From Sulfuricurvum sp. (lineage in GTDB: Bacteria; Campylobacterota; Campylobacteria; Campylobacterales; Sulfurimonadaceae): a DNA stretch of 56,547 nucleotides. The first letter of the stretch is position 1, and every line of letters starts with the position of its first letter. The stretch is taken from assembly GCA_011391735.1 (NCBI GenBank), contig JAABPY010000131.1, positions 1-56,547 on the forward strand. The letters are read 5' to 3'. Made by a program: the position numbers and the translations under genes. The notes beneath the pieces were generated by a model, which saw only the letters and a list, made by a program, of their open reading frames with translations, did no database searches and was not told where the DNA came from. Shown piece by piece: positions 15,710 through 19,844 of the stretch.

Positions 15710-16141
15710 ATGAACAAAACACGTGTTGATGATATGCTTATAGAAATGATTACCCCTAAAGTTAAAGAAATAGAAGAAAAATTCGGTCGTGGTGAGGGGC
15801 TAACGCAAGAGGACATCAATACTCTTTTGCTCAAAAGCCAATACAATCACATCAACCACCTTGATGATAAACTGAATGAAGTTGTCGCCGATGTAGCAAG
15901 CTTGAAAGGTGAGTTTAGTGGTCTTAAAGGTGAGTTTAGCGGTCTTAAAGGTGAGTTTAATAGCCTCCGAGGTGAATTCAAACTCTTAGAAACCAGTGTT
16001 AATGCTAAGCTGGATATTTTTAAAGCCGATATTGATCTGAAAATTCAAACCGCTATCAATACCAATATGCGATGGAGTATTGGTATTATCGCTTTTATCG
16101 TGACAATGCTCAAAGTTGCCGATATGCTGTTGGCAAAATAG
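15710..16141 (+). CDS. Coiled-coil protein with C-terminal membrane anchor
   Basis: The 143-residue protein is mostly helical. The middle has heptad units LKGEFSG repeated three times plus a diverged fourth (LRGEFKL), forming a coiled coil. One membrane segment follows near the C-terminus (about residues 121-140, WSIGIIAFIVTMLKVADMLL). The layout resembles DUF1640/CCDC90-type small membrane coiled-coil proteins that occur in mobile or accessory regions. Function is unknown. The repeat is encoded by near-identical 21-base units, so its length may vary between strains. Confidence 0.7.
   Translation: MNKTRVDDMLIEMITPKVKEIEEKFGRGEGLTQEDINTLLLKSQYNHINHLDDKLNEVVADVASLKGEFSGLKGEFSGLKGEFNSLRGEFKLLETSVNAKLDIFKADIDLKIQTAINTNMRWSIGIIAFIVTMLKVADMLLAK
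15901..15984 (+). repeat. 21-bp tandem repeat encoding heptads
   Basis: Units begin at 15901, 15922 and 15943 with a degenerate fourth at 15964. Each reads CTTAAAGGTGAGTTTAGYGG or close to it, so each adds one heptad to the coiled coil without changing frame. Confidence 0.85.
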
Positions 16142-16226: not shown

Positions 16227-16502
16227 CTACAGTATGTAGAGATCAAGAATTCTTTTAGGGAAAAATTCGCATACGTCTACTTCTAATACGTAAGCAATTT
16301 TCACCAAATGTTCAATATTAAAGTGTTGCTTTTTGTAATAAATTTCTGCAAGAGAGACAATAGAAAGTGACTTATGTCCTATTGCTTGAGCTAATTTGAG
16401 TTGGCTCATCCCTTTTTCCATACGGATTCTTTTGACATTCTGTCCAATTTCAATGTATATTCGATCAATGGTGTCATCTGCTAAATCAAGGATATCTTTC
16501 AT
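16227..16502 (-). CDS. XRE/Cro-CI family helix-turn-helix regulator
   Basis: The 91-residue protein is essentially one HTH_3 domain (about residues 16-75): IGQNVKRIRMEKGMSQLKLAQAIG, then SIVSLAEIYYKKQHFNIEHLVKIAYVLEVD. A short acidic N-terminal helix precedes it. A perfect 18-bp palindrome 58 bases upstream of its start, with a partial second copy nearer the gene, is the likely operator, implying autorepression and control of the divergent diguanylate cyclase gene. Confidence 0.85.
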   Translation of the reverse strand: MKDILDLADDTIDRIYIEIGQNVKRIRMEKGMSQLKLAQAIGHKSLSIVSLAEIYYKKQHFNIEHLVKIAYVLEVDVCEFFPKRILDLYIL

Positions 16503-16559
16503 ATAAAACCAACTTGTTATAAGAGGTTGTAAAGTTTATTAGGATAGAATATTTTCAGC

Positions 16560-16577
16560 AACTTGTTATAACAAGTT
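16560..16577. promoter_or_regulatory. Perfect 18-bp palindromic operator
   Basis: AACTTGTTATAACAAGTT is fully self-complementary. A second site at 16511-16529 keeps the left half (AACTTGTTATAA). The palindrome lies just upstream of the -10 box at 16588 and would cover its -35 region. Confidence 0.75.
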
Positions 16578-16587
16578 TAATGCATAA

Positions 16588-16593
16588 TATAAT
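16588..16593 (+). promoter_or_regulatory. -10 box of PAS-GGDEF gene
   Basis: TATAAT with a possible -35 TTGTTA at 16564-16569 (18-base spacer) that lies inside the palindromic operator. Binding of a repressor there would block RNA polymerase. Confidence 0.55.
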
Positions 16594-16656
16594 ACAATTA
16601 AGGATTAAGCTTTATTTTTTGGTGTTATATAATAATAATTGATATAAGTAAAAGGA

Positions 16657-17514
16657 ATGAATTTGGGGATCAAAAATACATATTATTATAAATATGTTTC
16701 TTTATTAGAAAAACATGTCTCTATTTCTATTACAGACCCAAATGGAGTGATTGTATGTGTGAGTAGGGCATTTTGTGAAATGACAGGATACAGCGAGGAA
16801 GAATTAATCGGTAAAAAACATACTCTCCTTCGTCATCCTGATATGAAAGATGAGGTATATCAAGATCTATGGATGACGATAACAGAAGGCAAGCCTTGGC
16901 ATGGACGTATTAAAAATCGAAAAAAAAATAAAGAGTTTTATTGGGTAGATGCCTATATTGAACCGATTTTTGATAATGAAACAATCGTTGGGTATCAAGC
17001 GATACGACAAAATATTACAGATGAAGTATTGTTTGAAACACTTGCCAAGATTGATGTACTGACAGGTTTATATAATCGTAATACCATTGAAGAGTTTGCT
17101 CGATTATTTATAGATGAATCACAGCGGTACCAAATCCCTTTTTCTATCATTATGGTGGATTTGGATGATTTTAAACAGATTAACGATCACTATGGACATC
17201 AAGCGGGTGATGAAGTATTGAAAAGATTGTCGGATATTTTTCAAGGTTTGGTGCGTTCAAGTGATCGTATAGGGCGTTGGGGGGGAGAAGAATTTCTTAT
17301 TTTACTTCCACAAACTACTTACTTGCAAGCAAAGGAACTTGCTGAGCGGTTACGCATCGGATTTTCCTCTTATATATTTGAGGGAATCGGATATAAAACG
17401 GCTAGCTTTGGAGTTGCTTTATTGGAGTCTAATGATAGAATAGAAAATTTAGTGGCTAAAGCGGATAAGGCGTTATACAAGTCAAAAAAATTAGGTAAAA
17501 ATTGTGTGACTTGA
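16657..17514 (+). CDS. PAS-GGDEF diguanylate cyclase
   Basis: The 285-residue soluble protein has an N-terminal PAS domain (about 10-120) of the Aer type: GKKHTLLRHPDM, KPWHG and NRKKN followed by FYWVDA. A catalytic GGDEF domain (about 130-285) has RWGGEEF near residue 207 and VDLDDFKQINDHYGH. It should make c-di-GMP under control of the PAS domain, which in Aer binds FAD and reads redox state. The ATG at 16657 abuts the AAAGGA site directly; an in-frame TTG at 16663 has better spacing (six bases) and may be the real start. It is divergent from the XRE regulator gene. Confidence 0.92.
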   Translation: MNLGIKNTYYYKYVSLLEKHVSISITDPNGVIVCVSRAFCEMTGYSEEELIGKKHTLLRHPDMKDEVYQDLWMTITEGKPWHGRIKNRKKNKEFYWVDAYIEPIFDNETIVGYQAIRQNITDEVLFETLAKIDVLTGLYNRNTIEEFARLFIDESQRYQIPFSIIMVDLDDFKQINDHYGHQAGDEVLKRLSDIFQGLVRSSDRIGRWGGEEFLILLPQTTYLQAKELAERLRIGFSSYIFEGIGYKTASFGVALLESNDRIENLVAKADKALYKSKKLGKNCVT

Positions 17515-17630
17515 TAATATTTTAAGTCCTATTCACGTGCAATAATTAAGTGCGGTATTGCTATACTTTGTAAGAAAAAATGAAAATAAATTTATAGTTA
17601 ATATAGTATTTAAAATGAGAAGGTGTAGCG

Positions 17631-19844
17631 GTGGTTTCATGCAAGAATTATCATTCGGCTTTAAAGAGAGAGAGAGAGAGAGAGAGAGAGACGGCGCATG
17701 CCATTTTAATCGTAGAAGATTCCACTTTATTTAATAATGCGCTTCGGAAAGGATTGTTGGCTTTAGGTCATAAAATTGTCAGTGCATTTACGCTTGAAGA
17801 AGCGTTGTCTGCACTCGAACACAACGCTTTTGATTTAGTCATTTTGGATTTACATTTACCCGATGGAGAAGGGGAAGATCTTCTTGAAAATTTAAATTCT
17901 AAACAAAAATTAAAAATTATTATTTACACCTCTGATGCGGATAAAGAACGTCGCAATGAATGGTTTCGATACGGGGTATTGGGATATTTGTCGAAAGATG
18001 ATCCTTTTGCTTTTGTTATTCAAGAAATTGATAAAACAGTAAAAGCGATAAATGAAAATACAAATTACACTATTTTAGTCGTTGATGATTCAAGTGTTGT
18101 TCGCCGTCAAATTACAATGTTGTTACAACCGCGAAATTACAAAATCAGTGCAGTGGTAGATGGTGCTACGGCACTTGAGAGCATTAATACAAAAAAATTC
18201 GATTTGATTCTTTTGGATCTTGAATTGCCTGATATGAATGGTGAAGACATCCTAAAGTATCTCAGAAAGAACAGTGCTACCGCCCAAATCCCTGTATTCA
18301 TTTTGACGGGAACTTACAATGCTGCTACTGTAGGGCGCTTGATTAAACAAGGGGCGAATGAGTTCTTCTTGAAACCTTTTATCCCCGAAGAGCTTCTTCT
18401 AAAAATTGATTTTTGTATTGATACCAAACGCAAAGCCATGCAAATCGAGTGTGAACGGCAGTTACTTCAAGAGTACAAAGATACGATTGATCGAAGTAGC
18501 ATCGTTTCAAAAACCGATAAACTGGGAATTATCACTTTTGTCAATGATAAATTTTGTGAGATATCAGGGTATTCAATTGCTAATCTTATCGGAAAACCTC
18601 ACAATATGGTGCGACATCCTGATATGCCAAAAGAGGTATTTAAAGAGCTATGGGAAACGATTCTTGAGGGGAAAACATGGGAAGGGGTCGTTAAAAATCG
18701 TAAAAAAGATGGGACACACTATTGGGTGCAAACGATCATCAACCCAATTATTGATGTGAATGGGGATATCGTCGAGTTTATCGGTATTCGAACCGATATT
18801 ACCGAAATTCAAAATATTAAAGAGAATCTACGGGAGCAGCTTAATATTTCCGAAGAACATTTCGAAGATGTTTATCGAATGGCGAAGCTGTATGAAAAAG
18901 CAGTAGATGAGAGTAATATTCTCTCTCGAACGAAACCTGATGGAACTATTACTTATGCTAATAGTCTTTTTTCTGAAATTACAGGGTATAGTAAAGAGGA
19001 GATCATTGGTAAAACCCATGCGATAGTCCGACATCCCGATACCCCATTAAAAGTTTTCGCCGATCTATGGAAAACGATCCAAAGTAAAAAAGCATGGAAA
19101 GGTATTCTTGAAAATCGTAAAAAAGATGGTTCATCGTATTGGGTCGATTCGACGATTATTCCAATCGTGAACAAAGAGGGTGCTATTGTCGAATATATAG
19201 CAATTCGTCATGACGTAACGCAACTCATCACCTTACACGAAGAGATTGAAAATACACAGCGTGAAATCGTTTATAAAATGGGGGAGATAGGGGAGAGCCG
19301 AAGTAAGGAAACAGGAAATCATGTACGGCGGGTAGCTGAATACTCCAAGTGTTTAGCATTATTGGCAGGATTGGACGAAAAAGAAGCAGAGACGGTTGCT
19401 ATTGCATCTCCCATGCACGATATAGGAAAAGTTGCTATCCCTGATAACGTTTTGCTCAAACCAGGTAAGTTAAATAATGATGAGTGGGTAGTTATGCGTT
19501 CCCACAGCGCAATCGGTCATCAGGTGTTAAGTGGGAGTGAACGACCTATTTTAAAAGCGGCGGCAATCATTGCCAAAGAGCATCATGAGAAATGGGACGG
19601 TAGCGGATATCCTATGGGATTATCGGGTGAAGATATTCATATTTACGGACGCATCACCGCTATCGTCGATGTCTTTGATGCCCTTGGAAGTGATCGTGTG
19701 TATAAAAAAGCGTGGGCGATGGAGCAGATTTTAGAGCTATTTCGACAAGAAAAAGGGAAGCACTTTGATCCAAAATTGGTTGATTTATTTTTAGATAATT
19801 TAGACGAATTTTTAGCAATTCGTGATCGTTATCGTGACACATAA
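17631..19844 (+). CDS. REC-REC-PAS-PAS-HD-GYP response regulator with a repeat-bearing start
   Basis: The 737-residue soluble protein has two receivers (about 24-140 and 143-260; phospho-acceptors in VILDLHLPDGEGED and ILLDLELPDMNGED). Two Aer-like PAS domains follow (about 285-385 and 415-510; each with a RHPD motif and a Trp in KTWEG or KAWKG). The HD-GYP phosphodiesterase domain is intact (HDIGKVAIPD, HHEKWDGSGYP). The N-terminus, LKRERERERET, is encoded by an (AG)13 tract, and no in-frame start lies between the tract and the first receiver. Translation from the GTG at 17631, which has GAGAAGG seven bases upstream, is in frame only when the AG count keeps its present phase. The gene is therefore probably phase variable. 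Confidence 0.9.
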   Translation: MVSCKNYHSALKRERERERETAHAILIVEDSTLFNNALRKGLLALGHKIVSAFTLEEALSALEHNAFDLVILDLHLPDGEGEDLLENLNSKQKLKIIIYTSDADKERRNEWFRYGVLGYLSKDDPFAFVIQEIDKTVKAINENTNYTILVVDDSSVVRRQITMLLQPRNYKISAVVDGATALESINTKKFDLILLDLELPDMNGEDILKYLRKNSATAQIPVFILTGTYNAATVGRLIKQGANEFFLKPFIPEELLLKIDFCIDTKRKAMQIECERQLLQEYKDTIDRSSIVSKTDKLGIITFVNDKFCEISGYSIANLIGKPHNMVRHPDMPKEVFKELWETILEGKTWEGVVKNRKKDGTHYWVQTIINPIIDVNGDIVEFIGIRTDITEIQNIKENLREQLNISEEHFEDVYRMAKLYEKAVDESNILSRTKPDGTITYANSLFSEITGYSKEEIIGKTHAIVRHPDTPLKVFADLWKTIQSKKAWKGILENRKKDGSSYWVDSTIIPIVNKEGAIVEYIAIRHDVTQLITLHEEIENTQREIVYKMGEIGESRSKETGNHVRRVAEYSKCLALLAGLDEKEAETVAIASPMHDIGKVAIPDNVLLKPGKLNNDEWVVMRSHSAIGHQVLSGSERPILKAAAIIAKEHHEKWDGSGYPMGLSGEDIHIYGRITAIVDVFDALGSDRVYKKAWAMEQILELFRQEKGKHFDPKLVDLFLDNLDEFLAIRDRYRDT
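17665..17691 (+). repeat. (AG)13 dinucleotide tract near start of HD-GYP gene
   Basis: Thirteen uninterrupted AG units plus a final A lie 34 bases after the GTG start. Gain or loss of one unit shifts the frame. With one extra unit an ATG at 17639, which lacks a well-placed ribosome-binding site, would instead be in frame with the downstream domains. Confidence 0.95.

Follow-up and report, generated by a model that had tools for sequence, protein, structure and literature searches.

The stretch of Sulfuricurvum sp. DNA considered here (56,547 nucleotides, the whole of it hereafter the window) carries, on its plus strand, a gene for a multidomain signaling protein that contains a long perfect AG repeat close to its start codon. 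Relatives were sought in all 41 genomes of the genus; G000 denotes the window's own genome, and G017 and G026 denote two others. The features of the locus are as follows.

16227..16502, minus strand: HTH_3 regulator gene, divergent; the G017 orthologue retains a shorter divergent relative of 59 aa on its upstream side
16561..16576, no strand assigned: palindrome ACTTGTTATAACAAGT, a probable operator with one change in G017, which the HTH protein may bind
16588..16593, plus strand: TATAAT, probable −10 box; the G017 equivalent lies directly 3' of its AT tract
16657..17514, plus strand: PAS-GGDEF gene, a probable diguanylate cyclase, adjoining the HD-GYP gene upstream with a gap of 116 nt
17615..17617, plus strand: second alternative ATG, in the frame of ATG17639, with an anti-SD energy of +0.7 kcal/mol, that is, no Shine–Dalgarno-like site
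17619..17623, plus strand: GAAGG, Shine–Dalgarno-like, 7 nt 5' of GTG17631, aligning with the GAAGG ahead of the G026 start
17631..17664, plus strand: GTG start and leader MVSCKNYHSAL(K), like the leaders of the G017 orthologue and of the paralogue G017:C4:1917418
17631..19844, plus strand: ORF of 737 aa, REC-REC-PAS-PAS-HD-GYP, a probable c-di-GMP phosphodiesterase, ON at 13 units
17639..17641, plus strand: alternative ATG, in frame with the receiver domain at 11, 14 and 17 units only, among counts of 9–18
17665..17691, plus strand: (AG)13 + A tract, the putative frame switch, read as (RE)n
17700..18065, plus strand: first receiver domain, with approximate limits taken from a REC-REC PDB match at residues 24–263
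18072..18407, plus strand: second receiver domain (residues 148–259, Pfam)
18534..18788, plus strand: PAS 1 (residues 302–386, Pfam)
18930..19223, plus strand: PAS 2 (residues 434–531, Pfam)
19293..19778, plus strand: HD-GYP domain with HD and HHE..GYP motifs (residues 555–716); best solved match 4mcw

The domain order REC-REC-PAS-PAS-HD-GYP, proposed in an initial annotation made from the sequence, is borne out by both Pfam and PDB matches. The catalytic part yields a Pfam HD_5 match (4.4e-34), and residues 531–736 align with chain 4mcw (E 3.9e-70), so that the domain and the HD and GYP motifs that define an HD-GYP phosphodiesterase are both present. Since the HD, HHE and GYP motifs are all kept in this alignment, the protein is likely a working c-di-GMP phosphodiesterase. 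The same genome contains at least 24 matches to the protein at E ≤ 1e-3 (a count that takes in REC and PAS matches, with 18 scored out of 136 first-look candidates), which points to a crowded signaling network. Named campylobacterotal relatives come from Arcobacteraceae, Campylobacterales, Sulfuricurvum, Sulfurimonas, Aliarcobacter, Sulfurospirillum and Helicobacteraceae MAG records.

As described in the initial annotation, 13 perfect AG units begin 34 nt past the G of GTG17631; they occupy 17665–17690 and are followed by A17691. The remaining AG or CT runs across the 56.5-kb window have at most four units, and the longest run in 200 first-order Markov simulations of the window had five, on which ground a chance origin was rejected. 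An assembly artefact was also rejected as improbable, given the unique flanks of the 27-nt tract and its location inside a 56.5-kb contig. AG runs of at least seven units occur at only three places in the source genome (2,144,541 bases, 85% complete), two of them in frame within ORFs:

17665–17691 of the window
C69:13383–13406
C1:59764–59789

The tract is thus a perfect tandem repeat well above chance, with a unit that is not a multiple of three and a position within coding sequence ahead of the functional domains, as expected of an SSR contingency locus. Among 398 genomes of the order, the pattern of the tract with its 3' flank was found in G000 only, G026 being outside that sample; a pattern scan of viral_contigs for the tract gave no match, and the tract length is known from one assembly. 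Because the AG tract is absent from the orthologue and from the paralogues read, it appears to be young.

The consequences of slippage were computed for tract lengths of 9–18 units and four starts. GTG17631 is open at 10, 13 and 16 units (735–739 aa); ATG17639 (733–737 aa) and ATG17615 (741–745 aa) are open at 11, 14 and 17 units; and none of the four starts reads through at 9, 12, 15 or 18 units. From GTG17631, translation ends after 33 codons at 12 units and after 26 codons at 14 units. This calculation reproduces the earlier statement that 13 units place GTG17631, and 14 units ATG17639, in frame. The accompanying remark that ATG17639 has no well-placed ribosome-binding site can be refined, as a GGTGG run precedes it and its calculated anti-SD energy (−5.7 kcal/mol) is near that of GTG17631 (−5.9 kcal/mol), though the site is closely spaced. 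ATG17615, which had not been named, adds a second start in the +1-unit frame, and a partly ON state may exist at 14 units. Past the tract, TTG at codons 42 and 43 is the earliest in-frame start-like sequence, and no in-frame ATG or GTG occurs before an ATG at codon 163.

To place the tract relative to the translated sequence, leaders were compared with those of 4 of 18 relatives, whose 5' ends were extracted (the G017 orthologue, G017:C4:1917418, G026 and G000:C210). Over the 11 residues after the start, the GTG-frame leader shows ungapped identities of 5/11 with the paralogue G017:C4:1917418 and 4/11 with the G017 orthologue; the ATG17639 and ATG17615 frames give 0–1/11 with the same two, and the G026 and G000:C210 leaders give 0/11 with the GTG leader. 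At the DNA level, the 5' flanks of the window and G026 genes form an ungapped 48-nt match with GAAGG and the reading frame in register, within which the G026 start lies one codon earlier; the score of this match was equalled in 0 of 5000 shuffles and in 2 of 5000 random pairs of real 60-mers. The ancestral start is not beyond doubt, since the ATG of G017 falls on ATG17639 and not on GTG17631 in a pairwise DNA alignment. Judged from these comparisons, the tract probably lies inside a translated leader. The initial annotation had named a true start 3' of the repeat, and homologues that start without the tract, as findings that would speak against a switch. The former is made unlikely by the shared leader frame together with the lack of an ATG or GTG until codon 163. 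The latter is true of the G017 orthologue and the paralogues read, but two of these tract-free homologues have leaders that match the GTG frame, so that the tract seems to interrupt a translated leader.

The 116-nt gap between the PAS-GGDEF and HD-GYP genes contains no terminator-like site that could be found; the promoter scan listed one weak promoter-like site there (17580–17607, 9/12) and fewer sites than in shuffles. The gap length and the lack of a terminator-like site, which form the sole basis for this assignment, suggest that the HD-GYP gene is probably co-transcribed with the PAS-GGDEF gene. Between the HTH gene and the PAS-GGDEF gene, two operator-like copies of the AACTTGTTATAA type lie at 16511–16529 and 16559–16577, 29 nt apart. 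An inverted-repeat scan of 16500–17720 recovered these as a 19-nt pair at 89%, with TATAAT outside, together with a 75% pair inside the GGDEF gene. An invertible promoter of the pdcB type (see below) was rejected, as no inverted-repeat pair encloses the probable promoter within 16500–17720. Farther upstream, a 21-nt direct repeat in 2.6 copies (15905–15959) lies in a small ORF (15710–16141); 21 being a multiple of three, length and not frame would vary there.

The nearest relative in another genome, G017:C4:1991506, is 78% identical and lacks the AG tract; a paralogue in the window's own genome (G000:C210), also without the tract, is nearly as close at 76%. G017:C4:1991506 was taken as the orthologue because it is accompanied by a related divergent HTH gene, a homologous promoter region and a PAS-GGDEF gene, the last of these (77%) lying about 1.5 kb past its end. 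In its promoter region, an (AT)13.5 tract stands directly before a −10-like TATAAT and ends 35 nt before the ATG, and this region aligns with the window region 5' of the PAS-GGDEF gene, the palindrome included. AT runs of at least 21 nt are confined to four places in 3 of the 41 genus genomes, and G017 has one, at this promoter. At 20 nt, the TTGATA–TATAAT spacer falls outside the optimal range, and a promoter scan accepting 16–18 nt did not list this promoter. In this sister species, the gene appears to be varied through a different device, namely a tract in the promoter spacer. The fimbrial genes hifA/hifB of Haemophilus carry a (TA)n repeat in their promoter spacer, which the G017 tract resembles in its position directly before TATAAT; the latter, however, stands before a phosphodiesterase gene.

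In G026, an (AT)11.5 tract upstream of a chemoreceptor gene is followed by a PAS-HD-GYP gene with (AG)14 at its 5' end and then by a PAS-GGDEF gene, whose product is 76% identical to that of window positions 16657–17514. The PAS-HD-GYP gene (L148, 3630–4520; G026:C62) lacks a central part that includes the HD half of its catalytic domain; since the first 75 positions of the HD profile are missing, this copy is probably not a working phosphodiesterase. It was not kept as an orthologue of the window gene, being receiver-less and closest to G029:C9 (74% over 179 aa and 69% over 126 aa); a similar 5' leader and the tract are what the two genes have in common. Another genome, G024, keeps the PAS-GGDEF gene (77%), and the surrounding 12 kb contain no HD-GYP motif and no dinucleotide tract of more than five units.

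Lack of canonical mismatch repair is helpful, though not strictly defining, for SSR contingency loci. Neither MutL nor MutS1 exceeded its curated cut-off in any of the 41 genus genomes, while each did so in 11 of 14 controls. Below the cut-off, a weak MutL match was present in 13 of 41 genomes and a MutS-family match, from the MutS1 search, in 38 of 41, so that some repair may exist. Epsilonproteobacteria are described as being without several mismatch-repair genes, and hypervariable G:C tracts as absent in Arcobacter butzleri, S. denitrificans and W. succinogenes (PMC2147049).

Taken together, we consider it probable that the c-di-GMP phosphodiesterase gene is switched by its tract as a slipped-strand contingency locus. 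This reading is supported by a tract that is probably translated, by a start that agrees with the leaders of two relatives, by the absence of a nearby ATG or GTG that could rescue translation, and by a catalytic domain like that of 4mcw. Further support comes from a second coding AG tract in the genome and, in two other species, from repeats at the promoter of the orthologue and at a related gene. Replication slippage would add or remove AG units at a raised rate, and a slip of one unit would shift the frame so that translation from GTG17631 stops early, leaving slipped cells without the enzyme; at 11, 14 or 17 units, a smaller amount of enzyme might perhaps be made from ATG17639 or ATG17615. 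As the PAS-GGDEF gene upstream probably belongs to the same transcript, a slip would abolish the hydrolase and spare the cyclase, shifting the pair toward c-di-GMP synthesis in a subpopulation. The initial annotation had gone on to propose a toggle between motile and sessile states. Anatomy and comparison support the frame switch on the HD-GYP phosphodiesterase itself, whereas an effect on swimming or attachment is conjectural, in a genome with many related signaling genes.

The most serious competing explanation is that the AG run is a neutral microsatellite that drifted into an unconstrained leader, its OFF variants being rare loss-of-function mutants with no adaptive role. The leaders of the relatives do vary in length and sequence, the orthologue does without the tract, and the many signaling paralogues could mask a loss. 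Against drift of this kind, AG runs of at least seven units occur at only three places in 2.14 Mb, two of them in frame within ORFs, the promoter of the orthologue has a repeat tract of another kind, and the related G026 gene has an AG tract of its own. Moreover, drift in a genome without a MutL above the cut-off would be expected to leave tracts at more places. We therefore regard neutrality as unlikely, while giving it far more weight than either of the following two readings.

The tract could instead serve as a charged linker of tunable length, with (RE)n ahead of the receiver domain growing or shrinking in steps of three units and frame changes arising as a side effect. Arg-Glu repeats make soluble linkers, and the frame is kept at 10, 13 and 16 units. 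From GTG17631, however, just one length in three would be usable, the tract-free relatives have no such linker, and the G026 tract stands ahead of a PAS domain instead; a role as a linker is accordingly very improbable. Equally improbable is an internal start unaffected by the tract, from which the catalytic part would be expressed at any repeat number. TTG codons are available from codon 42 on, the strongest anti-SD energy among them being −6.3 kcal/mol, at codon 120, and relatives without receivers exist. Against this, a start at codon 42 or later would cut off the first strand and the acidic residues of receiver 1, no internal ATG is available until codon 163, and the leader is in the frame of the relatives' leaders.

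A broader proposal builds on the contingency switch. One c-di-GMP phosphodiesterase gene may have come under repeat-driven random control more than once in the genus, through the coding AG switch in the window, the promoter AT spacer of the sister species G017, and the AG and AT tracts of a third species at a related phosphodiesterase–chemoreceptor–cyclase cluster, whose phosphodiesterase lacks part of its catalytic domain. Stochastic diversification of c-di-GMP would itself be the selected trait, with the coding tract uncoupling hydrolase from cyclase. We offer this as a tentative proposal, somewhat more likely to fail than to hold. If the switch is real, programmed variation would target a regulatory network and not a surface molecule, and the unit count would provide a simple read-out of c-di-GMP bet-hedging in metagenomes.

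Surface antigens and restriction systems of host-associated bacteria are the usual setting of contingency repeats, and the SSR contingency genes of Haemophilus, Neisseria, Campylobacter and Helicobacter mostly concern surface structures and restriction–modification. The window gene differs from these in its target, a signaling hydrolase, in its AG unit and in its bacterium, which is probably free-living, to judge from the named relatives. As in the SSR contingency genes described in the available text of PMC11868660, its tract lies between start codon and functional domain, has a unit that is not a multiple of three, and is accompanied by starts in other frames.

That a c-di-GMP phosphodiesterase can be phase-variable is not in itself new. 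In Clostridioides difficile, pdcB and pdcC are described as phase-variable c-di-GMP phosphodiesterases controlled by promoter inversion (PMC9286219; PMC11868660). Both systems would involve stochastic ON/OFF expression of such an enzyme and c-di-GMP levels that differ within a clonal population, the latter being a prediction here. By those accounts, the C. difficile device is an invertible promoter that governs transcription of a GGDEF-EAL protein, whereas here a dinucleotide tract at the coding 5' end would govern translation of a REC-REC-PAS-PAS-HD-GYP protein; the coding repeat tract is what differs from pdcB and its DNA inversion. The phase-variable sfa fimbrial operon of Escherichia coli also contains a PDE gene (Zlatkov et al., described in PMC11868660). 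It resembles the present proposal in having a phase-variable PDE, but operon control is epigenetic, without a repeat tract, in that description. Within the same phylum, a variable G-repeat in the leader of Helicobacter pylori tlpB controls a chemoreceptor gene (PMC8295292); there too a repeat controls a signaling gene, but it is described as a leader homopolymer targeted by a small RNA and not as a coding frame switch. Laboratory evolution of Pseudomonas aeruginosa yielded intergenic homopolymer indels together with changed c-di-GMP enzymes (PMC8115180). Repeat-tract variation and c-di-GMP tuning were proposed to act jointly in that case, but the selected indels were enriched before cell-envelope genes, and the available text of PMC8115180 names none inside a c-di-GMP enzyme gene. 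In literature searches on repeat-driven cases and on phase variation in free-living Campylobacterota, no repeat-driven c-di-GMP enzyme was recognised among the matches listed, in a coverage that omits most subscription journals.

Dinucleotide tracts at known kinds of contingency sites are a feature of the genus, although not all tracts are of that kind. AG runs of at least nine units occur at 15 places in 11 of the 41 genomes, where the promoter, ORF and intergenic calls in genomes other than G000 derive from reading of ORFs of at least 70 aa, with Pfam for selected ones. Five places lie within open frames: besides the window gene and an MBOAT gene of G000, these are the G026 gene, a type I specificity locus of G008, and an unassigned G003 ORF with an ATG frame that is closed as assembled. 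Upstream of a small ORF and a TPR gene, the two tracts of G060 and G033 sit between TTGAC- and TAAAAT-like boxes with a spacer of 21; three (G014:C23, G014:C45 and G021) precede chemoreceptor, PAS or PAS-kinase genes; and five occupy other intergenic or contig-end places. Of the four AT places, the G017 promoter and the site ahead of the G026 chemoreceptor gene account for one each, and the other two are neighbours within AT-rich non-coding sequence of G018.

Several of these tracts merit separate mention. In the window's genome, (AG)12 lies in frame inside an MBOAT/AlgI-like O-acyltransferase gene (L008, G000:C69:13383–13406). An alignment of this copy with nine of the 22 other listed matches, namely the ones for which a locus was given, shows that the tract encodes an Arg-Glu loop, and that all nine have shorter loops without the repeat and a frame conserved on both sides; alongside the window gene, it is probably a second contingency gene of G000. 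In G008, the type I specificity locus (L095, G008:C30) has (AG)12 between two frames, 3' of an N6-methylase gene, with a type I specificity domain in the second frame, and is a candidate phase-variable restriction–modification locus. The two promoter-like places, L090 (G060:C6) and L099 (G033:C180), each with (CT)9 at 1501–1518 and a spacer of 21, belong to two species and are candidate phase-variable promoters. An intergenic flank, GCGCTCTTCG(AG)n, is common to four tracts in 4 of the 41 genomes (L001 in G000:C1, L089 in G027, L094 in G015 and L097 in G016) and resembles a recurrent intergenic element that includes a repeat of its own. Finally, the chemoreceptor, PAS or PAS-kinase genes mentioned for G014 and G021 are preceded by (CT)17–18 runs (L146, 2501–2534; L149, 3056–3089; L150, 2–37); those of G014 share the 3' flank ACCATCATAAGCC, and two G014 contigs begin at such tracts.
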